Positions 5,858 through 35,522 of a stretch of 36,706 nt of DNA are shown in pieces (position 1 is the stretch's first letter; each line of letters begins with the position of its first letter). The DNA lies in the IMG/VR virus record IMGVR_UViG_3300032241_002959, positions 1 through 36,706 of that record. One strand, given 5' to 3'. Under the pieces are notes generated by a model. It had not been told where the DNA came from and did not search any database. It worked only from the letters and a program-made list of their open reading frames with translations. This stretch comes from a virus. The position numbers and the translations under genes are program-made.

Positions 5858-5889
5858 AACAAATGCTACTAAATTTAGTAGCATTTGTT
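5858..5889. terminator. Perfect 32-base palindrome, bidirectional terminator
   Basis: AACAAATGCTACTAAA is followed directly by its reverse complement. It lies between a plus-strand gene ending at 5845 and a minus-strand gene whose stop codon begins at 5891. Confidence 0.85.
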
Positions 5890-6518
5890 TATTTTATAAT
5901 TTTAATATCTAAATTAGTATCAATAGATTGAACCAATTTAATTAAATCATCACTTGGTTTATATAGTATAATACCCGTTATATATTTAGATGATAAATAA
6001 CCAGGTTTATTTGATTCTATTTTCTCCTCATATACATCTGGTCGCTTACCAGCATAATCCATAATATCCTTCGGTGAATTACCCATACCAGTTTTTTTCA
6101 CTCTTTTAATTGTCTTTATCTTAAGAGCAGCAGTAAAATCAAATGGATGTATCTTGTAATTATTAGATATCAAAGAACCATCAAGCACAAAAGTAACTCT
6201 ATTATTTTTAACCCATTGTGAATTTCTACTAGTTGATATAAAATACGATCCTCTCATATTTTTCCACAAATCCATACCTCCATAATTATCAGCATTTTTA
6301 TACCAATTTATCATTGGTTGATTACCAGTCCCATCACCAAAATTAGCAGATGCGAATTTTAAACCTTTTTCTAAAATGGAAATTATAGTTTCATATGTTT
6401 TACTATCAACATCATCACTGACTTTATCACTTTTAATATCATCACCTTTTACTGTAAATCCATGATATAAATTACCATAATTTTTACCTTCATTAAATTG
6501 TAACCAATTTTTAATCAT
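5889..6518 (-). CDS. Putative packaged protein, possibly ADP-ribosyltransferase-like
   Basis: A 209-residue protein. The start, MIKNWLQFNE-G, fits the capsid-targeting-like pattern of this window, with possible cleavage after E10. The rest resembles the core of ADP-ribosyltransferases: LYHGF (H19), then ILEKGLKF (residues 48-55), then SYFISTSR (residues 91-98), then VTFVLDG and YKIHPFDF, and finally VYEEKIES (E164, E165, E168) before a last strand ITGIILY. HG followed by a 'YF.STS' strand and a late glutamate is the order of catalytic elements in these enzymes. T4 also packages an ADP-ribosyltransferase (Alt). The match is by motif order only; it may instead be an inactive or unrelated phage protein. 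It is the last gene of a five-gene minus-strand cluster and overlaps the upstream gene by four bases. Confidence 0.5.
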   Translation of the reverse strand: MIKNWLQFNEGKNYGNLYHGFTVKGDDIKSDKVSDDVDSKTYETIISILEKGLKFASANFGDGTGNQPMINWYKNADNYGGMDLWKNMRGSYFISTSRNSQWVKNNRVTFVLDGSLISNNYKIHPFDFTAALKIKTIKRVKKTGMGNSPKDIMDYAGKRPDVYEEKIESNKPGYLSSKYITGIILYKPSDDLIKLVQSIDTNLDIKIIK

Positions 6519-6787
6519 CTTTTTATTTTTATTTTTATTAATTTTATTTTTAAGTCTCCACTACCTTTTATCAATCTGTGATAAATACCCATCGGTATAA
6601 AAACTTCACCCTCAATCTTCTTAGGAAGTTCATTATCTAATTGTATCATCCAATCAGTTTCTTTTAAAGATTCTATAATACGAGATTCACGATCGTGATG
6701 CCACATAAATTCACTAGATTCAGTATATTGACTGAATTCTCTGATAAATGTATTATCACTTATTTTACTCTCTTTAAATGGTAACAT
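6515..6787 (-). CDS. Small cupin-like protein
   Basis: A 90-residue protein with a single cupin-like strand series: MWHHDRESRIIE (residues 29-40), WMIQLDNELPKKI, VFIPMGIYHRLIKG (residues 67-80) and a closing strand DLKIKLIKI. The HH.D and later 'P.G.YHR' elements are the usual metal-site positions of small cupins. Similar small proteins are widespread in T4-like phages, without known function. The start has a weak version of the targeting pattern (MLPFKE-S), too short to count. The ATG overlaps the stop of the upstream gene (TAATG), implying coupled translation. Confidence 0.55.
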   Translation of the reverse strand: MLPFKESKISDNTFIREFSQYTESSEFMWHHDRESRIIESLKETDWMIQLDNELPKKIEGEVFIPMGIYHRLIKGSGDLKIKLIKIKIKR

Positions 6788-7179
6788 TATGATATAATTT
6801 TTTTATAATTTTCTTTTAGTTCTTTAATTTTTTGTAACCAATTATCCTTAACATCACCATCAACTACAAACTTTTTAATTCTAGGCTCAATATAAATCAA
6901 TAGCTCTCTTATTTGACCAAACAAAGCTGATAACATTTTAGGACTTTTATAAAGATCATTTACATTATCTATCAAATCAGTATATTTTTCACCATTTATA
7001 AGTGGTTCTCTCAATCTCTTCATCATAGAAGTCAATTCTTTGGTTGCAGTTTCATCAATACCCATCTTAGTAATCTGAGAAAACTTCATAGTAATCATAA
7101 AACCAAAGTCAAATAGAAAATCACTAATAAACTTTCTATTAACTGATTCAAATATCTTATAAGATTTTAAATATTTCAT
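6787..7179 (-). CDS. Unknown protein with capsid-targeting-like N-terminus
   Basis: A 130-residue, mostly helical and lysine-rich protein. Its N-terminus MKYLKSYKIFE-S is a good example of the targeting pattern (hydrophobic-x-Glu, possible cleavage after E11). The mature part has hydrophobic helices (FISDFLFDFGFMITMKF; ALFGQIRELLIYIE) but no clear membrane segment. No family was recognised. It is in the middle of the minus-strand cluster 5889-8214 and is coupled to the cupin-like gene by a TAATG overlap. An internal head protein is inferred from the N-terminus. Confidence 0.6.
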   Translation of the reverse strand: MKYLKSYKIFESVNRKFISDFLFDFGFMITMKFSQITKMGIDETATKELTSMMKRLREPLINGEKYTDLIDNVNDLYKSPKMLSALFGQIRELLIYIEPRIKKFVVDGDVKDNWLQKIKELKENYKKIIS

Positions 7180-7196
7180 CTCTTACTATTTTAATT

Positions 7197-7763
7197 TTAC
7201 CAGTACCCAGGATATGTTTTATTATTCCAAAGGTGACCATATTTATTGATTCTACAAGCCCAATAACCTGCTTTAGTCTTATCTTTCTTTGTATCACATT
7301 TATGACGTGCTGCAAATGCCTTTCTAGCCTTTGGATCACTAACCTTAGCCGTCAAACCACCATGAACATCACCAAATGCTATTTTTTTAATATTACCTGT
7401 TTTTTGATCTTTTATATATACGTGATATTTTTTACTACCACCACGCATAGGTTTATTAAGTTCCACTTCTTTACCATGGTATTCAGCTTCATTTAATTCC
7501 TCAATAACCTCCATTGGAATATCTAAAGCAACTCTAGCACCCTCAAAGATACCAAACTTACCAATATCAGTTGTATCATAAAGTTCTTTATCAATACCTT
7601 TAAGTTCTAATAAACCACCATCATATAAATTCCTAGCTTCTTCTAAGATAGCAAAGAATTCATCAGAACCTGGTCTAAATACATTTTCAGTTATTGGCAT
7701 AGCATTAACCAAATGATATTTCAAACTTTCTGAAAAATTATCAAAATTTACCAAATGTTTCAT
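7197..7763 (-). CDS. Two-module phage protein with C-terminal Cys/His domain and targeting-like N-terminus
   Basis: A 188-residue protein beginning MKHLVNFDNFSE-S, which fits the targeting pattern. Module 1 (residues 27-85) has ENVFRPGSDEFFAILEEAR and later TDIGKFG...ALDIPME. Module 2 (residues 97-180) has KPMRGGSKKYHVYIKD, KIAFGD, then AARHKC (H154, C156) and DKTKAGYWAC (C170). Module 2 is a known type in large phages and some giant viruses, usually annotated as a structural or unknown protein; the His and Cys residues could bind a metal. Its role is not established. It is directly downstream of the Cys-rich gene, one base apart. Confidence 0.65.
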   Translation of the reverse strand: MKHLVNFDNFSESLKYHLVNAMPITENVFRPGSDEFFAILEEARNLYDGGLLELKGIDKELYDTTDIGKFGIFEGARVALDIPMEVIEELNEAEYHGKEVELNKPMRGGSKKYHVYIKDQKTGNIKKIAFGDVHGGLTAKVSDPKARKAFAARHKCDTKKDKTKAGYWACRINKYGHLWNNKTYPGYW

Positions 7764-7764
7764 A

Positions 7765-8214
7765 TTATAAAATCCCTTTTAAAAAATCAGCAAATGGAAC
7801 AACATTATTATTAGGAACTACTTCTTGTTCACATTCACATGGTTCACAATTACAAGCATCACAAACAACACTAGGCTCTAAATCACCTTGACATTCACAT
7901 GGTTCACAACCACACTCTTGACAACATTCTTCAGCACAATTATCACCTTCTCCTGTTTCAACTGAAGCTTCACCATCTTCATCAATTGTTATCTTAACTG
8001 AAAAATCTTCAAATTTTTTAATAGCAGTTTTCAAACCAGGTGTACCACCATCATTTTGAATTTCCTTTTTAAGTTTTTTCTCGGCAGCATCTGTTAATTC
8101 ATCATTATTTCTTGCAAAACCAATAACATCTTTATCATCCTCAAATGATTTAATATCAACACTTGTAACCTCATCTTCTTTAGATTTAGTTTCATTAAAT
8201 CTTTTAATATACAT
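7765..8214 (-). CDS. Cysteine-rich acidic protein with targeting-like N-terminus
   Basis: A 149-residue acidic protein, first gene of the minus-strand cluster. The start MYIKRFNE-T matches the targeting pattern, with possible cleavage after E8. The C-terminal third contains twelve cysteines, of which ten form two exact copies of C-x2-C-x-C-E-P-C-E-C (residues 98-108 and 118-128). This array suggests metal binding, for example zinc clusters, but it matches no family I can name. The DNA reflects the duplication: ACATTCACATGGTTCACAA occurs at 7831-7849 and 7891-7909. A putative promoter motif is 22 bases upstream, divergent from that of the giant virion gene. Confidence 0.65.
   Translation of the reverse strand: MYIKRFNETKSKEDEVTSVDIKSFEDDKDVIGFARNNDELTDAAEKKLKKEIQNDGGTPGLKTAIKKFEDFSVKITIDEDGEASVETGEGDNCAEECCQECGCEPCECQGDLEPSVVCDACNCEPCECEQEVVPNNNVVPFADFLKGIL
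7831..7909. repeat. Internal direct repeat encoding the duplicated cysteine motif
   Basis: The 19-base sequence ACATTCACATGGTTCACAA occurs twice, at 7831-7849 and 7891-7909, exactly 60 bases apart. It encodes the CEPCEC part of each cysteine array, so the duplication is recent or under strong constraint. Confidence 0.8.
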
Positions 8215-14127: not shown

Positions 14128-15033
14128 TTATTTCAAACCTTTAAATATATGGGCAATCACATCAACAGTCCAACCATCACCCAATATACAAGCTGCCTCA
14201 TTTTGAGTTAAGTTATCAGTATATCCACTCGGAACAGTTTGGCAAAACTCACGTTCCCTATTATTCATATATCTAACACCACTATACACACTCAAATCCA
14301 TACCCTTTGATAACTCATCAATTTCAGCAGCACTTTTACCTTTAAAATTTACATCAAAATGTTTCTTTAATTCTTCATAATGTTCCTTTGATTTAAATAT
14401 AAGAGTAGTGAAACCTGTATTGAAATATCTATGACACATTTTAATGGGAGTTGATAGTGGTCTAGAATCCGATTCAAGTAAAGTTCTAGCCTTATCTCTA
14501 TCAGAATAACCATTAATCAAAAAATCATTCAATTTCATTTTTTTATTTTCAGGAAGTGTAATACCTGGTATATTAGTCCAATATAAACGATGTCTTAAAT
14601 GCGGTGCAACTAATTCAGAATTTATAACAACTGGCTCACATCCCATCATTTCACTAATAAAATCCTGATGCTCTTTTTTCATCCTAACATTCTCTAATAA
14701 GAAATATTTTGGATTTGTCTCCTCTAATAATCTAGTATATTCAAAGAATAAACCACTCTTAGTACCATCAACACCAAGTCTCTCTTTATTAGCACCAGAA
14801 AAATCTTGACATGGTGATCCACCTATCAATAGGTCTATTTTAGGCAAATCTTTACCATTTATCTTAGTAATATCTCCTAATCTATTTGGAGTATCTTGTG
14901 GATAATTAATATCAGCTACCTTTATAGCATAATCTTTAATTTCACTACTGAAATAATTAGTAACATCAACACCCGCTTTTTCAAGAGCTATTCTACCACA
15001 ACTCATTCCATCAAAAAGACTTAATACATTCAT
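14128..15033 (-). CDS. C5-cytosine DNA methyltransferase, tandem copy 1
   Basis: A 301-residue Dcm-type enzyme, transferring methyl from SAM to cytosine C5. Motif I is LSLFDGMSCG (residues 4-13), motif IV is GGSPCQDFS with catalytic C75, motif VI is LLENV (112-116), and motif VIII is LRHRLYWTN. The region of residues 160-255, the expected target recognition domain, differs from copies 2 and 3. The C-terminus has GDGWTVDVIAHIFK where the other two have GNGWTVDVIAHIFK. Copy 1 lacks the Q of the usual QxRxR in motif VIII. It is the last of three copies on the minus strand and lies 5 bases after copy 2. No restriction enzyme is nearby, so modification or protection of phage DNA is more likely than a restriction-modification system. 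Confidence 0.92.
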   Translation of the reverse strand: MNVLSLFDGMSCGRIALEKAGVDVTNYFSSEIKDYAIKVADINYPQDTPNRLGDITKINGKDLPKIDLLIGGSPCQDFSGANKERLGVDGTKSGLFFEYTRLLEETNPKYFLLENVRMKKEHQDFISEMMGCEPVVINSELVAPHLRHRLYWTNIPGITLPENKKMKLNDFLINGYSDRDKARTLLESDSRPLSTPIKMCHRYFNTGFTTLIFKSKEHYEELKKHFDVNFKGKSAAEIDELSKGMDLSVYSGVRYMNNREREFCQTVPSGYTDNLTQNEAACILGDGWTVDVIAHIFKGLK

Positions 15034-15038
15034 AATTT

Positions 15039-15893
15039 TTATTTTATATTTTTAAATATATGAGCAATTACATCAACCGTCCAACCATTACCAAGCATTT
15101 TCAATGCCTGTGATCTACTTACTGAAATAGTATAATCAATAGGAACACATTGTAATCTCTCTCCCTCATTTCTTGTTATTTTTCTAACCCTACCATCATT
15201 TTCTAAAATCTTAGCCTTACCACTAGCACCAGTATCTAAACAACCATGTTTACCATTTAAATAATAAGCTCTCTGATCTTGACTACCATGACCTGTACCA
15301 TTTATATCATATTGTAAATAATTCTTTTTAAACACACGGATTTTTGTTTTATCATCATCTATATATTCAAAATCATTACTATTTAGATCTACTATATCTT
15401 TAATTAAAATTCCTCTATCTTCTGGTAAGTTAATAACAGGTATATTAGTCCAATATAAACGTTCACGATTCTGTGCAGAAACGAGATTACTATTAATCAT
15501 TATAGGTTCAACACCTAGTTCTTTAGTGATTATATCCTCCCATTCGTTTTTCATCTTAACATTTTCTAATAGAAAATATTTAGGATTAATTTCATTTTTA
15601 ATCCTAACATATTCCCAAAATAAACCTGATTTACCATCAAAACCAGTACCATTTCCAGCTCTTGAAAACGATTGACATGGACTACCACCTATAAGTAAAT
15701 CAATTTTCGGTAATTCAGATCCATTTAAATCCAAAACACTCCCCAATTGAATTGTATCTGGATAGTTATCTAAAGTTACTTTCATAGCATGAGTATCAAT
15801 TTCAGAGGCAAAATATTTATCATATTTAATACCTGCTCTATTTAAAGCTATTTGCCCACAAGACATACCATCAAAAAGACTTAAAACATTCAT
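15039..15893 (-). CDS. C5-cytosine DNA methyltransferase, tandem copy 2
   Basis: A 284-residue Dcm-type enzyme. Motifs: LSLFDGMSCGQIALNRAGI at the N-terminus, GGSPCQSFS (C73), LLENV (residues 108-112), SAQNRERLYWTNIP (motif VIII complete) and GNGWTVDVIAHIFKNIK at the end. Its first 22 residues are identical to copy 3, and its C-terminal 17 residues are too. The central part (residues about 155-250) has its own sequence, including HGSQDQRAYYLNGKHG, so a different DNA target is likely. This is the shortest copy. It lies 4 bases after copy 3. Confidence 0.92.
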   Translation of the reverse strand: MNVLSLFDGMSCGQIALNRAGIKYDKYFASEIDTHAMKVTLDNYPDTIQLGSVLDLNGSELPKIDLLIGGSPCQSFSRAGNGTGFDGKSGLFWEYVRIKNEINPKYFLLENVKMKNEWEDIITKELGVEPIMINSNLVSAQNRERLYWTNIPVINLPEDRGILIKDIVDLNSNDFEYIDDDKTKIRVFKKNYLQYDINGTGHGSQDQRAYYLNGKHGCLDTGASGKAKILENDGRVRKITRNEGERLQCVPIDYTISVSRSQALKMLGNGWTVDVIAHIFKNIK

Positions 15894-15897
15894 ATAA

Positions 15898-16809
15898 TTA
15901 TTTTATATTTTTAAATATATGAGCAATTACATCAACCGTCCAACCATTACCAATCATTTTTCTAATTTGATTATCACTAGCAACACCATCAAAATAATTA
16001 TCAGGAACGGTTTGTAATCTACAATATTCCTTAATAGTATAATATCTAAATGGTAATTGTAATTTAAAAGCATCAGGATGACGACCCACTGGCATTATAG
16101 TTAAAACATTATCCTTAGCAACCGTAGTTAGACAATTACTTTTATTTCTGTTAGTAGCTCTAACTTCAAGACATTGTGTAATGGGCACATCTTTATTATA
16201 ATCCTTTCTAATACCATTATCATCTAATCTTCTACCTAGTATAGTTGCCTTATTCAATCTTCTACCCCTTATTGCACTAGGTCCTATCATAACATCATCT
16301 TCTAAAATATCAACCAAATTAATATTCTTATCATCAGGCTGTTGAATATTAGGTATATTAGTCCAATATAATCGTTGGCGATTTTGTGCAGAAACAAGAC
16401 TACTATTAATCAAAATAGGTTCTACACCCAGATGCTCACTAATAACATCTTGATACTCCTTTTTCATTACAACATTTTCTAATAAAAAATACTTAGGTTC
16501 ACACTCTTTTAACAATCTAACATACTCAAAGAATAATTTACTCCTAGGATCTTCAAAATTTAATTGTTTCCCCGAAAAGCTGAAACCCTGACAGGGACTA
16601 CCACCAATCAATAAATCTATTTTAGGTAAATTAGATCCCTTAACATCCAAAACACTACCTATTTGGATAGTATTTGGATAATTGTGATTAGCCACTTTGA
16701 TAGCATGTTTATCAATCTCACTAGCATAATAGTTATTATACTCTATACCAGCTCTATTTAGAGCAATTTGCCCACAAGACATACCATCAAAAAGACTTAA
16801 CACATTCAT
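15898..16809 (-). CDS. C5-cytosine DNA methyltransferase, tandem copy 3
   Basis: A 303-residue Dcm-type enzyme, first of the three in transcription order. Motifs: LSLFDGMSCGQIALNRAGI, GGSPCQGFS (C73), LLENV (residues 109-113), SAQNRQRLYWTNIP and GNGWTVDVIAHIFKNIK. The recognition part (residues about 160-260) is basic and includes IRGRRLNKATILGRRL, different from copies 1 and 2; CRLQTVPDNYFDG is motif IX-like. Just upstream is a terminator for the gene before it, so either readthrough or a promoter in the short gap (16810-16827) must drive the three copies; no good match to the late motif is visible there. Confidence 0.92.
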   Translation of the reverse strand: MNVLSLFDGMSCGQIALNRAGIEYNNYYASEIDKHAIKVANHNYPNTIQIGSVLDVKGSNLPKIDLLIGGSPCQGFSFSGKQLNFEDPRSKLFFEYVRLLKECEPKYFLLENVVMKKEYQDVISEHLGVEPILINSSLVSAQNRQRLYWTNIPNIQQPDDKNINLVDILEDDVMIGPSAIRGRRLNKATILGRRLDDNGIRKDYNKDVPITQCLEVRATNRNKSNCLTTVAKDNVLTIMPVGRHPDAFKLQLPFRYYTIKEYCRLQTVPDNYFDGVASDNQIRKMIGNGWTVDVIAHIFKNIK

Positions 16810-21929: not shown

Positions 21930-22391
21930 ATGAAAATTAAAAAAATAATTAAATATTATCTTCTAGGTGAGTCTTTAAAGGATATAGAATTAGATAGAAT
22001 TCTTACAAAGATTAATAAAAAGAAGAAACTCTCTGAAAGGGAAAAGAATTTTATTGACCTATACGAAGCAACTAAAAATGATATTTTAAATGATTATATG
22101 CTATTATCAAAAAATACAACATCATCTAAAATTAAAGAATTATTAAAATCAAACATAAAAATAATATGCAATCTGGAAGATCAAGATGGTGCATTTAGAT
22201 TAGAAATACTAAATATTGAAAATGATTTTGAAAATGATAAAGCTATAATATACATGAGGGGAAATGAAAAACATTATCTAGAAGATAAATATTTATACAA
22301 TTTAATTTATAATATAGGGAAAAAAAGTTATTCACTTGAAATACAAGATGAATATTTCGAAAAAATAGAAGCCAATAATAATGAAGATTAA
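21930..22391 (+). CDS. Unknown protein with ILxKI...LSExEKxF module
   Basis: A 153-residue product (158 if the ATG at 21915 is used; that ATG overlaps the promoter-like motif, so 21930 is preferred). The N-terminus is basic (MKIKKIIKYYLLGES). Residues about 21-43 carry DRILTKINKKKKLSEREKNF, a short module also found near the C-termini of two other products here (26245 and 29757) and like the DUF6576-type tail of Bacteroidota proteins. The rest alternates strands and helices with no motif. The stop overlaps the next ATG by 11 bases, implying a two-gene operon with 22381. Confidence 0.55.
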   Translation: MKIKKIIKYYLLGESLKDIELDRILTKINKKKKLSEREKNFIDLYEATKNDILNDYMLLSKNTTSSKIKELLKSNIKIICNLEDQDGAFRLEILNIENDFENDKAIIYMRGNEKHYLEDKYLYNLIYNIGKKSYSLEIQDEYFEKIEANNNED

Positions 22392-22656
22392 AAGATTTAA
22401 TAAATTTGTAAAAGAATCCATATCAGGTACTGAAATACCCACAAATCCAAACTTCAGTTATTTTGGTCCATCATATGGTACACAGAAAAGTCCAAATACA
22501 ATAAATTATCATGATACTGATGTTATACTAGCATCTGATAATAAATTTTATTCAGAAGATGATTATAATGATATGTATCAAAACTATCTTAAAAATGGTG
22601 GTAAACCACTAGATGGTTTTAATTTAGAAAATATAGAAACAATTTTAAATTTCTAA
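22381..22656 (+). CDS. Small protein with capsid-targeting-like N-terminus
   Basis: A 91-residue protein starting MKIKRFNKFVKE-S, one of the clearest copies of the targeting pattern (possible cleavage after E12). The remaining 79 residues are polar and rich in Asn, Asp and Tyr, with no recognised domain (NYHDTDVILASDNKFYSEDD is a representative part). It overlaps the upstream gene by 11 bases. Its stop codon overlaps the stop of the convergent fibre gene, and no terminator is visible at that junction, unlike every other convergent pair in the window. Confidence 0.6.
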   Translation: MKIKRFNKFVKESISGTEIPTNPNFSYFGPSYGTQKSPNTINYHDTDVILASDNKFYSEDDYNDMYQNYLKNGGKPLDGFNLENIETILNF

Positions 22657-30274: not shown

Positions 30275-30646
30275 TTAAAAAGCTCCTTCAGCACCAGTTC
30301 CTGATTCTGGACCACCGTATTTACCAGCATCTTCCCATTCACCATTCTCTTTTTGTTTAACTGTTTTTGCCTTCATAACTACCTTTGCAACATCTACAGG
30401 ATTAACAGCATCTGCTCCTATTTTTCCACCCAAGAAAGCATCTACACTTGGTGCATTTTTTTTAGCAACATCAAATCTATCACCAAAACTAGCAGCATAA
30501 TCATTATATTTTTTTTTAAGTGTTTCTTTTTCTTTTTCAAGATTTGAAAGAATTTCTTTTATAACAGCTTGTGGTCTCAAACCACCTAAAAAAGCCTCAT
30601 TAGTTGTATCTATTGAATAACTTTCAAAATTTTTTAAATATTTCAT
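30275..30646 (-). CDS. Small glycine-rich protein with capsid-targeting-like N-terminus
   Basis: A 123-residue protein. The start MKYLKNFESYSIDTTNE-A has the targeting features, with two possible cleavage points: FE-S after residue 8 or TNE-A after residue 17. Then FLGGLRPQAVIKEILSNLEK leads into a charged helix (KEKETLKKKYNDYAA), AFLGGKIGADAVNPVDVAKV and a glycine-rich end (GKYGGPESGTGAEGAF). No family was recognised. It is the only gene of its minus-strand unit and is divergent from another targeting-signal gene at 30757. A packaged internal protein is inferred. Confidence 0.6.
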   Translation of the reverse strand: MKYLKNFESYSIDTTNEAFLGGLRPQAVIKEILSNLEKEKETLKKKYNDYAASFGDRFDVAKKNAPSVDAFLGGKIGADAVNPVDVAKVVMKAKTVKQKENGEWEDAGKYGGPESGTGAEGAF

Positions 30647-30671
30647 ATTAATTTTAATATTTTTTTATAAT

Positions 30672-30683
30672 CTATATATTTAA
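30672..30683 (-). promoter_or_regulatory. Putative late promoter motif
   Basis: On the minus strand TTAAATATATAG matches 10 of 12 bases, 25 bases before the start at 30646. Confidence 0.4.
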
Positions 30684-30724
30684 TTAAAAATCTTACTTTT
30701 TTTAACTTTTTCTTAAAAATAAAA

Positions 30725-30736
30725 ATTAATATATAA
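30725..30736 (+). promoter_or_regulatory. Putative late promoter motif
   Basis: ATTAATATATAA matches 11 of 12 bases, 20 bases before the ATG at 30757. It is divergent from the motif at 30672. Confidence 0.5.
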
Positions 30737-30756
30737 TAAAAATAAAATAAATTACT

Positions 30757-31338
30757 ATGATAATAAAAAAATTCAATACCCTTAACGAGAAATGGAAAGG
30801 TAAAGAAGTTGAGGTTCAAAAAACAGGAGAATATACTGATAAAACTATAGCAGAACTTAAAAAAATGAAATCAGATCTTAAAAAAGAAAATGATAAATAC
30901 CAAGAAGATGGTAAAGATGTTCCTAAAAAGAATAAAGAAAAAATGAGTGAAATCATATTTGCTATAAGAGCAAAAGGTGGTTGGAAAAAAGGTGAAGGTG
31001 CTACTAATGAAGGTATGGAAACTGAAAATTATATGTTTTTTAGTAATTTAAAAACAATTAAAAGATTAGTTGATGAAATGTTGGAAATGGATGAAAATAA
31101 TGTAGATGAATTATTGTCAAATGGACATAATTGGGCATTAGATCATATTGCAACATCAAAAGACGATGTAGAAGAAGTTTTCAATTTCCTGGCAGGTGAG
31201 AAAGACGATCAAAAAGAAAAACCATTATTGGGTGGACCTGAATCATCTCATACAATTCATGACAATCATATGAGAAATATGGAATCTGAAGAAGAATCTG
31301 ATGAGAAGATTAAAGGATTTAATGATTTTAACTCATAA
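30757..31338 (+). CDS. Two-domain phage protein with capsid-targeting-like N-terminus
   Basis: A 193-residue protein starting MIIKKFNTLNE-K (possible cleavage after E11). Domain A (residues 18-79) has VEVQKTGEYTDKTIAELKKM and later SEIIFAIRAKGGWKKG; this 'GeY..KTiaELkk...FAiRAK' pattern is common in large phages and appears in unrelated contexts. Domain B (residues 92-147) has MFFSNLKTIKRLVDEMLEMD and NGHNWALDHIATSKDDVEEV, also a recurring phage module. The C-terminus is acidic with SHTIHDNHMRNMES. Neither module has an established function. A strong terminator follows. It is likely virion-associated if the N-terminus works as inferred. Confidence 0.65.
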   Translation: MIIKKFNTLNEKWKGKEVEVQKTGEYTDKTIAELKKMKSDLKKENDKYQEDGKDVPKKNKEKMSEIIFAIRAKGGWKKGEGATNEGMETENYMFFSNLKTIKRLVDEMLEMDENNVDELLSNGHNWALDHIATSKDDVEEVFNFLAGEKDDQKEKPLLGGPESSHTIHDNHMRNMESEEESDEKIKGFNDFNS

Positions 31339-33732: not shown

Positions 33733-33761
33733 AAAAACGACACTATTTGGTGTCGTTTTTT
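33733..33761. terminator. Bidirectional terminator after the aminotransferase
   Basis: The stem AAAAACGACAC / GTGTCGTTTTT with loop TATTTG lies at a convergent junction. The minus-strand gene's TAG stop (33743-33745) is inside the hairpin. Confidence 0.9.
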
Positions 33762-34141
33762 ATTTCTTTAAATGGGAAACGAAATTGATAGTTATTAACC
33801 CATCTATCACCAATTTGTATTAGAGAATTATCAGCACTTTTACCATCATCATCTAATTCATAACCTAAATCTAACATTCTCTTTTCTATGCTTAGAAAAT
33901 CTCTAAGAGCTTTAAATGGATTGGCTTCTGTCAATTTCTCAGCGTGACCTACTATTAAATAACCATTTTTATTTTTATCAGCATAATGTTGATTTTCTTT
34001 ATTATATAAATAAAACATACCGTCTTCCCAATATGGTTTAATCTCAATCTTAAATCCATTATCAATTAAATCAATAAAAATCCATTTTATCTCTTCTATA
34101 TTTGGATCATTAGATTCTACTATTCTACTAAATTTTCTCAT
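33743..34141 (-). CDS. Unknown protein with capsid-targeting-like N-terminus (paralogue A)
   Basis: A 132-residue protein starting MRKFSRIVE-S. After the signal it has IKWIFIDLIDNGFKIEI (residues 18-34), closely similar to the next gene's IKNIFINLIDNGFELKI, so the two are paralogues over their first 35 or so residues and differ afterwards. The rest is YWEDGMFYLYNKENQHY, LIVGHAEKLTEANPFKALRD, and a helix IEKRMLDLGYELDDDG. Such 'IF..LiDnGF.v.i' proteins occur in several large phages without known function. Translation is coupled by a TAATG overlap to 34141. Confidence 0.6.
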   Translation of the reverse strand: MRKFSRIVESNDPNIEEIKWIFIDLIDNGFKIEIKPYWEDGMFYLYNKENQHYADKNKNGYLIVGHAEKLTEANPFKALRDFLSIEKRMLDLGYELDDDGKSADNSLIQIGDRWVNNYQFRFPFKEIKNDTK

Positions 34142-34887
34142 TATAATTTGTTAACTTTAATCTTATTTGGAAACTTTTTAGCCATCTCTAAAAGTTTTTC
34201 AACTACTTCAATACCTTCCTTATCAAATTTAAGAGGATTACCTATTTCATCATTACCTATATACTCTTTTCTTCTTTCATTTCCCCAAAGTGCATCATAA
34301 TCAAGTCTTCTTTTAAGAATTTTCCTTAAAAAATCTTCATAACCAGGATATTCAGCAACAAACACATCCACCGCATTATCAATATCTCTATCTATATCCA
34401 TTTGCCAACCAAAATATTCTGGCGTTTTCCATCCATTTTCATTAGCAACATCCATTCTAAAATAACTTGCATCATTTAACTTACCTTCAATTCTAGTAAC
34501 ACCTAGAACATTCTCAACATATGATTTAAATTCTTTCCAACCATGAACATCCTTTGATGGTACAGAAGTACTATCATTATATCTCAAAAAAATATCAGAA
34601 TATGTTCCATCATTAGTTTTCTTACCTATTATCATTTCATCAGCTTTAAAATAATCTAAACCAAGATCAAATAATCTTTTATTAGCAATGTAAATATCAT
34701 TAATACATTCCATATAATCCATATTATCATCTTTAGAACCATAACGAGTAAGATGTATAGAATAGAAAGATTTTGCATGATCAATTTTTAATTCAAATCC
34801 ATTATCAATCAAATTAATAAATATATTTTTAATATCAGTATAAATCTCACTTTCTAGTGATTCTATTATTTTAGTAAATTTTCTCAT
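34141..34887 (-). CDS. Unknown protein with capsid-targeting-like N-terminus (paralogue B)
   Basis: A 248-residue protein starting MRKFTKIIE-S. Residues 18-36 (DIKNIFINLIDNGFELKID) are shared with paralogue A. A helix IYIANKRLFDLGLDYFKADE follows, matching A's IEKRMLDLGYELDDD. The remaining part is unique: WKEFKSYVENVLGV, YFRMDVANENGWKTPEYFGW, DNAVDVFVAEYPGYEDFLRK and ILKRRLDYDALWGNERR, ending in a basic tail. No enzyme motif is seen. It is the middle gene of the minus-strand group, overlapping both neighbours by one base. A packaged protein is inferred. Confidence 0.6.
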   Translation of the reverse strand: MRKFTKIIESLESEIYTDIKNIFINLIDNGFELKIDHAKSFYSIHLTRYGSKDDNMDYMECINDIYIANKRLFDLGLDYFKADEMIIGKKTNDGTYSDIFLRYNDSTSVPSKDVHGWKEFKSYVENVLGVTRIEGKLNDASYFRMDVANENGWKTPEYFGWQMDIDRDIDNAVDVFVAEYPGYEDFLRKILKRRLDYDALWGNERRKEYIGNDEIGNPLKFDKEGIEVVEKLLEMAKKFPNKIKVNKL

Positions 34888-35144
34888 TAATCTCTAATAT
34901 CTTTATCTATCTCTTTATCATCCTCTTTGTCAGCTGTTGCATCAACTTCCATAGCATGATATAGTTTTTTAACCTCACTATCATTCATTGCTTTTAAATC
35001 GCTCTCATCAAATGATGAAACATCAATTAACCTCTTTTCCATCTCTTTACGACTTATTCTCTCCTTATCATTAGGATCCAAATCATAGCTATTCTCAGGA
35101 TGTCTGTTAAAGTTCTTATACTCTTTTAAATATTTAAATTTCAT
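34887..35144 (-). CDS. Possible independent product from the internal start at M127
   Basis: An 85-residue charged product would start at the ATG at 35144-35142 on the minus strand, in the same frame as the longer ORF. It begins MKFKYLKEYKNFN. Its leader is A-rich like those of genuine starts in this genome. Whether it is a separate gene, an internal translation product or just part of the larger protein is undecided. Confidence 0.35.
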   Translation of the reverse strand: MKFKYLKEYKNFNRHPENSYDLDPNDKERISRKEMEKRLIDVSSFDESDLKAMNDSEVKKLYHAMEVDATADKEDDKEIDKDIRD

Positions 35145-35522
35145 AACATTATTTATTTTTTTTTCTGATATACCCAAAATAAATTGAATATCCTTTTCAA
35201 TAATATCCAAGCCCTCATCAACAGATTTAACAGATTTTTCAAAATCTATACTATCACCTGCATATTTTGTTATATAAAGATCATCAATACTAAACTCATA
35301 TTTAATAGCTAAATTATCTTTTGTGAAATTAACAATCAAATCATGATCATTTTTATTCTCCCACTCATAAATCAAATTTGATGATATTGATTGATCCTGT
35401 GCTTGTGCCTGACTTTGTGAAATACTATTAACCAAATCACTAATTTCCTGCATTTTTGCATCTATCATACTATTTGAATTATCAACAAATTCTAAAATAT
35501 ATCTATTCCATTTTTTTATCAT
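34887..35522 (-). CDS. Unknown protein with targeting-like N-terminus, apparently two genes joined in frame
   Basis: A 211-residue ORF starting MIKKWNRYILE-F. The first 126 residues include a glutamine-rich stretch (SISQSQAQAQDQS) and a strand-rich part (YEFSIDDLYITKYAGD). Then the sequence reads EKKINNVMKFKYLKEYKNFN, where M127 has the look of a second start: MKFKYLKEYKNFN resembles the other targeting-type N-termini, and the DNA before it (nine A then TAAATAATGTT) looks like an intergenic leader. With eight A instead of nine, the first part would stop at TAA. The last 85 residues are charged (DLDPNDKERISRKEMEKRLI). An exact promoter motif ends only 3 bases before the start codon. Confidence 0.6.
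   Translation of the reverse strand: MIKKWNRYILEFVDNSNSMIDAKMQEISDLVNSISQSQAQAQDQSISSNLIYEWENKNDHDLIVNFTKDNLAIKYEFSIDDLYITKYAGDSIDFEKSVKSVDEGLDIIEKDIQFILGISEKKINNVMKFKYLKEYKNFNRHPENSYDLDPNDKERISRKEMEKRLIDVSSFDESDLKAMNDSEVKKLYHAMEVDATADKEDDKEIDKDIRD

Follow-up and report, generated by a model that had tools for sequence, protein, structure and literature searches.

A 209-aa protein encoded on a viral DNA stretch of 36,706 nucleotides (IMG/VR record IMGVR_UViG_3300032241_002959; the whole stretch is called the window here) belongs to an unannotated phage family with a predicted ADP-ribosyltransferase (ART) fold. On the evidence presented below, we think it probable that this protein is a small H-type ART that is carried in a megaphage head and injected. 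Its fold and family are well supported. Family membership, the predicted fold, the conserved residues, the resemblance of the N-terminus to a known tag, and the protease and capsid families of the relatives were established by computation.

Gene and genomic context

The first-pass annotation had read the open reading frame (ORF) at 5889-6518 as a possible packaged ART-like protein, with a series of short motifs behind a targeting-like N-terminus. The ORF proved to be genuine; it lies on the minus strand and encodes 209 aa, and its product contains all of the motifs named. Motif positions are L17-Y18-H19-G20, Y92-FISTS-R98, V108-TFVLD-G114, S118-NNYKIH-P125, and D161-VYEEKIE. The gene is the last in a leftward run of five tightly packed genes (5889-8214), and its ATG overlaps the stop codon of the gene before it (ATGA). 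All five products have a tag-like start, in which hydrophobic-x-E is followed by S, T or G (an arrow marks this boundary below).

5889..6518, minus strand: ART-family gene, 209 aa, predicted DarT/Tpt1-like ADP-ribosyltransferase fold (ORF, profile and model)
6515..6787, minus strand: upstream overlapping gene, 90 aa, N-terminus MLPFKE↓S (ORF call)
6787..7179, minus strand: tag gene, 130 aa, N-terminus MKYLKSYKIFE↓S, 26.8 bits to the tag profile
7197..7763, minus strand: tag gene, 188 aa, N-terminus MKHLVNFDNFSE↓S, phrog_7595 match
7765..8214, minus strand: acidic protein, 149 aa, N-terminus MYIKRFNE↓T

In the 7197-7763 protein, the match to phrog_7595 (E 6.6e-13; unknown function) lies in a C-terminal domain, and the tag lies at the N-terminus.

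The window represents a 36.7-kb piece of the genome of a huge, uncultured T4-like phage; it does not contain the head genes. Tail sheath and baseplate-hub families adjoin its tail tube gene. The tail tube protein shares 79% identity with that of LR745206 (634,780 bp) and 66% with that of LR756502 (642 kb), and, among more distant relatives, 43% with LR756504 (636 kb) and 36% with LR756501 (735 kb). The four complete phage genomes that Al-Shayeb et al. reported as the largest (634, 636, 642 and 735 kb) fall in the clade Mahaphage, and Bacteroidetes were the predicted hosts of genomes above 634 kb (PMC7162821). Beside the SbcD-like (gp47) gene, LR745206 and LR756502 carry other tag-bearing genes in place of the ART gene, which suggests that this locus is a cargo island with exchangeable genes.

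Two other regions of the window were of separate interest. Three tandem paralogues at 14128-16809 resemble cytosine-C5 methyltransferases (MNVLSLFDGMSCG..., ...GGSPCQ...). At 662-2365, a 567-aa protein is inserted between the sheath and hub genes and looks mobile (homing-type); four homologues were found among the structural genes of LR756500 (L006:11392-22477) and one in LR756504.

A viral family of ART-like proteins

Searches with the 209-aa protein alone gave no Pfam match and no tblastn match in phages or in viral contigs, and its best PHROGs matches (E 0.08-0.22) were not significant. A PDB phmmer match to Ada2 was rejected as spurious. A weak match in the 735-kb genome LR756501 (E 0.01) lay in the tail sheath, covered residues 12-80 only, and was attributed to chance.

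The family was found by searching IMG/VR DNA with V..V.DG...S..YK[IV].P written as a degenerate nucleotide pattern. This VLDG...YK[IV].P pattern returned 19 loci, all 19 of which encode one coherent family; outside the pattern they also share an E-x-K-x-x-G-x-(L/I)YH start, an S-x-T-R strand, and a late E-E. A typical family sequence reads L-x-E-[AGS]-K-Q-V-G-T-L-Y-H-F-T ... V-S-F-T-R-N-K ... V-x-L-V-I-D-G-D-K-L-S-x-x-Y-K-I-x-P ... E-A-E-E-R-I ... Y-I. A profile-guided scan of IMG/VR yielded 168 viral relatives, of which 80 were kept.

A family HMM built without the 209-aa protein scored this protein at 47.8 bits. With the search motif masked, the score was still 12.6 bits, whereas the best of 4,000 shuffles reached 12.2; this masked score is only modest, and the family claim therefore rests on the whole profile together with the structure. 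Given only the failed BLAST, Pfam and PHROG searches with the protein alone, a chance order of motifs in an unrelated orphan ORF could have been suspected, but the profile score, the masked-motif test, the model, and the fold search all argue against it, and we regard it as highly improbable. The motif order, which had been offered as suggestive, is thus not accidental, and it is virtually certain that the 209-aa protein belongs, as a divergent member, to an unannotated family of phage proteins.

Two paralogues of the family occur in the megaphage LR756504, and members are present in the cultured Vibrio phage K566, Dickeya phage JA29, and Bacillus phage SP-15 (62-72 bits). A scan of 84,980 prokaryote species, each represented by one genome, found no cellular relatives within the reach of its patterns and of tblastn confirmation with L020, and the family appears to be virus-only and widespread. 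By public models, it has no name in Pfam, NCBIfam or the named PHROGs, and it may coincide with one of the 16 ART families of PMC9503650. The Pfam model Tox-ART-HYD1 (PF15633) touched 28 of 82 members, mostly weakly (best 2.8e-5) and over a short span where inspected (28 residues in the typical member L020); the 209-aa protein itself had no match to it.

Family members occur alone and in varied fusions. In L015, L048 and L052, the ART domain (at residue about 136) lies behind another domain, with an L-x-E-[AG] site between the two; in L015, the domain ahead carries a HELVHH metallopeptidase-like motif. Ankyrin-like repeats follow the ART domain in the phage proteins L014:9814-10812 and L019:86-1288. 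A second, different LYHAT protein (L068:1657-2028; N-terminus MIRLKDLLKEA) is encoded directly upstream of a family member.

Predicted fold, conserved residues and ART class

The AlphaFold model of the 209-aa protein (80 sequences) had a pLDDT of 78 and a pTM of 0.75, with low-confidence inserts (61-70). Foldseek against 350,542 PDB chains returned DarT as all of the top three matches (probabilities 0.92, 0.84 and 0.69), with modest E values of 0.02-0.05, and all other matches had probabilities of at most 0.06 among the best 50 matches listed. The model of L020 was better defined (pLDDT 87.5, pTM 0.82); its top 17 PDB matches were all Tpt1/KptA or DarT (probabilities 0.93-1.00), PARP10 ranked 21st, and the best match was the Tpt1/KptA structure 8tfi (probability 1.00) at a modest E of 0.005. 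Among predicted viral structures, 12 matches fell below 1e-3, nearly all of them unnamed phage proteins and one from Dickeya phage JA11. When the family sequence profile was compared with PDB, two DarTs ranked first, at non-significant scores. The ART-like fold suspected from the motifs was thus borne out in the models, with DarT as the only notable neighbour of the 209-aa protein and both Tpt1/KptA and DarT as neighbours of L020. The models indicate that the protein almost certainly has a split beta-sheet ART fold.

The residues and segments on which the class assignment draws are as follows.

6462..6467, minus strand: Y18-H19, strand 1; invariant in 80-82 aligned members; predicted NAD-contacting histidine
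6225..6236, minus strand: S95-T-S-R98 strand (family S-x-T-R), near-invariant
6144..6197, minus strand: VTFVLDGSLISNNYKIHP, residues 108-125, family hallmark
6030..6143, minus strand: residues 126-163, long, mostly helical insert before the glutamates; length varies in the family
6024..6029, minus strand: E164-E165, near-invariant, candidate catalytic glutamate(s)

At the positions that define the ART superfamily, H19 of strand 1 is invariant, and S95/R98 of the middle strand and E164/E165 are near-invariant. About 80 homologues conserve the histidine, the S-x-[TS]-R strand, and the E-E pair; the ART idea thus withstood both checks set for it beforehand, on fold and on conservation. Family positions retained by the 209-aa protein are E10, K12, G15, Y18, H19, I48, S95, R98, D113, G114, S118, P125, E164 and E165, and its departures are N for Q13, S for T97, and V for E162.

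The invariant strand-1 histidine and the DarT/Tpt1 structural neighbours place the family on the H-type (DarT/Tpt1) side. The R-S-E class (T4 Alt, ModA, ModB) was rejected because Y-H is invariant where the strand-1 arginine would be expected; no R-S-E enzyme was present among the high-probability PDB fold matches of the 209-aa protein and L020. The class, which the motifs had left unclear between H-Y-E and R-S-E, is therefore largely settled as H-type. The idea that the protein is an independently derived counterpart of Alt also held up in this respect, since it lies outside Alt's R-S-E clade.

The insert at residues 126-163 occupies the position of the substrate-recognising (ARTT) loop and may correspond to it. 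As this insert is variable in the family, targets may differ between members. DarT and Tpt1 act on nucleic acids. In DarT1, the ART glutamate is E152, and R52, M71 and N104 are also essential (PMC11543638); judged by position, E164 or E165 may be the counterpart of E152. We consider it likely that the protein is an active ADP-ribosyltransferase. Its divergent sequence and basic character (pI about 9.3) could also suit a protein that keeps the ART fold without catalysis and acts inside the head as a structural or DNA-binding component, as T4 internal proteins are basic (PMC9026906). However, H19, S95, R98, E164 and E165 are all kept despite the divergence, and we consider a loss of catalysis improbable.

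The proximity to DarT, together with the small overlapping gene upstream (6515-6787), raised the question of a DarTG-like toxin-antitoxin or superinfection-exclusion pair. The 90-aa neighbour had no Pfam match, and neither a macro nor a NADAR domain was seen in it; more widely, no Pfam match to a paired DarG macrodomain or NADAR antitoxin was found in the tested neighbours. The neighbour also has a tag-like N-terminus of its own, as do all genes of the run, and ART family members are not tied to one partner but stand alone or in diverse fusions. Such a pairing is thus hardly likely.

The N-terminal tag and its putative cleavage site

Internal proteins of T4 carry a 10-residue capsid-targeting sequence that gp21 cuts after L/I-x-E; residues 8 and 10 govern its processing, and the peptide has been suggested as a mechanism for loading varied proteins (PMC9026906). 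In NC_000866, the N-termini of IPIII and Alt read MKTYQEFIAE↓A and MELITELFDED, respectively. The corresponding feature of the 209-aa protein is the following.

6489..6518, minus strand: residues 1-10, MIKNWLQFNE, putative capsid-targeting propeptide; predicted prohead-protease cut F8-N9-E10↓G11

MIKNWLQFNE↓G fits the T4 peptide in length and at residues 8 and 10 (F8, E10), but its P3 residue is F and not L or I. Among 92 family proteins, P3 was L in 60, I in 21 and F in 4 (L or I in 81), P1 was E in 86, and P1' was A in 41, G in 32 and S in 9 (82 together). In the member from Vibrio phage K566, the predicted cut would follow LAE (MKKFNEFANELAE↓A). Where the ART domain is internal in a longer protein, the L/I-x-E↓A/G/S site is kept directly before the domain in 15 of 16 cases. 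Judged from the sequences, this conserved site at the domain border would look like a processing site that frees the ART domain, and the K-Q-V-G conservation downstream may also reflect the fold itself. In the model of the 209-aa protein, mean pLDDT was 54 at residues 1-10 and 90 at residues 11-20, indicating that the fold begins right after E10.

On the tag profile described below, the N-terminus of the 209-aa protein scored 7.7 bits only, a value reached by 0.6% of null windows; the MKYLK subtype dominates this profile, and MIKxW variants, of which this is one, score too low on it. The N-terminus in LR745206 nearest to that of the 209-aa protein was MIKKWNQFNESK (9/12), on a protein without a match to the ART family.

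Alternatively, the ART might be made and used in the infected cell, as T4 ModA and ModB are, and remain unpackaged, with the N-terminal peptide serving in another role such as an address for a complex or compartment. The JA29 member, which has no tag and begins straight at the ART domain, would suit this explanation, as would the occurrence of the tag in LR745206 on proteins containing RNA ligase, polyA-polymerase-head and methyltransferase domains, since these might just as well work in the infected cell. On the other hand, the site falls exactly at the fold start even in internal fusions, the residue pattern and 10-residue length of the tag fit T4 (PMC9026906), and the relatives show matches to gp21-type protease and Gp23 families. 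We consider unpackaged action possible but rather unlikely, and packaging of the 209-aa protein in the head likely.

Tagged proteins in megaphage genomes

The targeting-like N-terminus proved more striking than the first-pass annotation had claimed, as it is shared by the whole gene run and by more than 100 proteins of LR745206. A tag profile trained on LR745206 N-termini matched 103 of 853 ORFs in LR745206, and in LR756504 it matched 43 of 825; only 0.1% of windows that begin at an internal methionine reach the threshold used. A fixed, strict regular expression picked out 36 of 853 LR745206 ORFs against 2 of 3,050. Addition of the small MIKKY/MIKKW class brought the tag carriers in LR745206 to 114. 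Subtypes of the tag were MKYLKxFNES, MKYLKxYKIFES and MIKKYxxFIKES. A looser pattern (any hydrophobic-x-E in the first 14 residues) showed no more than a roughly twofold enrichment in LR745206; the case for the tag is therefore built on the profile and the stricter pattern.

When 113 LR745206 tag carriers were aligned, mean column identity was 4%, which indicates that their bodies are unrelated. Few have known domains: besides the RNA ligase, polyA polymerase head and methyltransferase mentioned above, these are M15 peptidase, NFACT-R and Zn protease. In LR745206 the tag genes cluster: 41 pairs were adjacent where 15 were expected, and none of 2,000 shuffles gave more than 28. Synonymous codons within the tag follow the genome background, indicating that the peptide rather than the RNA is under selection; a nucleotide-level cause of the shared N-termini, such as a translation signal, was rejected on this ground. 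Tag-bearing stretches of the window beyond the ART gene were as follows.

6787-8214: tag-bearing stretch
22381-22656: tag-bearing stretch
30275-31338: tag-bearing stretch
33743-35522: tag-bearing stretch

Peptidase_S77 (gp21-type protease) matches were found in all five related complete genomes, above the curated cut-off in one and weak in the other four (E 1e-4 to 4e-6); the prohead protease match of LR745206 lies at 198525-198959. Gp23-type capsid matches were likewise present in five of five. Near residue 45, the Gp23-type capsid proteins of the relatives (LR756500-LR756504, LR745206; L148-L152) share a conserved [ILM]-x-E-N, at which the prohead protease might plausibly cut as well. Together, the tagged proteins might form a very large packaged cargo. 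The literature searched contained no account of capsid-targeting peptides having expanded in huge phages; other papers may exist.

Proposed model

Catalysis, packaging, cleavage, injection and the existence of a host target are inferences, and we propose the following sequence of events. The prohead core would draw in the 209-aa protein by its first 10 residues, acting as a T4-like capsid-targeting peptide. A gp21-type prohead protease would cut after E10, leaving residues 11-209, which start where the fold starts, and the mature ART would exit the head together with the DNA. In the host, H19 and the S-x-S-R strand would bind NAD+, E164/E165 would be used for ADP-ribose transfer to a host macromolecule, and the variable loop before the glutamates would choose the target.

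A wider version of this model is tentative. Bacteroidetes-infecting megaphages might load about 100 different proteins via one modular, protease-removed N-terminal tag, including a virus-only DarT/Tpt1-like ART family whose targets upon infection would be nucleic acid or protein of the host, and in other phages the same kind of site might free the ART from internal polyprotein positions.

The family is new to Pfam, NCBIfam and the named PHROGs, and its ART class differs from that of Alt. The protease-like site at the domain border offers a simple handle to predict packaged phage proteins; applied to the largest known phage genomes, this rule suggests a possible very large cargo of injected proteins. 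Such a cargo, if real, would bear on genome and head size and on how the host is disarmed in the first minutes. Members in the cultured phages Bacillus SP-15 and Vibrio K566 make the packaged-ART reading testable.

Comparison with known systems

The best structural match of the 209-aa protein is DarT1/DarT2 (PDB 8baq, 7omw, 7yk3), with which it shares the YH.T start with a helix, the late glutamate, and the H-type class. Unlike DarT, the family described here was found only in viruses. The DarT models of Pfam and NCBIfam did not match the 209-aa protein; among 82 members they matched three (Pfam, E at least 0.007) and two (NCBIfam, E at least 0.035), none above the curated cut-off. Tpt1/KptA is the top Foldseek match of L020, and the Pfam PTS_2-RNA (Tpt1/KptA) model matched 1 of 82 members (E 0.005), which was not the 209-aa protein. 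The Tpt1 signature differs from the family residues YH, S-x-T-R and E-E.

ARTs have been reported in over 40% of jumbo phages, most frequently of the N4-like, PART, ORF28, p0068, Alt/VIP2 and Mod families, and head-packaged ARTs such as T4 Alt are a known phage strategy (PMC9503650). The protein of the window resembles T4 Alt and IPI-III in being a proposed head-packaged ART with a short putative propeptide that ends in hydrophobic-x-E at a candidate gp21-type site, and the relatives of the window phage have matches to T4-like capsid and protease families. It differs from Alt in class and size: Alt, a mono-ADP-ribosyltransferase, belongs to the R-S-E clade and has 682 codons (NC_000866), whereas the window protein is H-type and has 209 aa. 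The scale also differs, as T4 has a handful of tagged proteins and LR745206, the nearest relative, has about 113 candidates.
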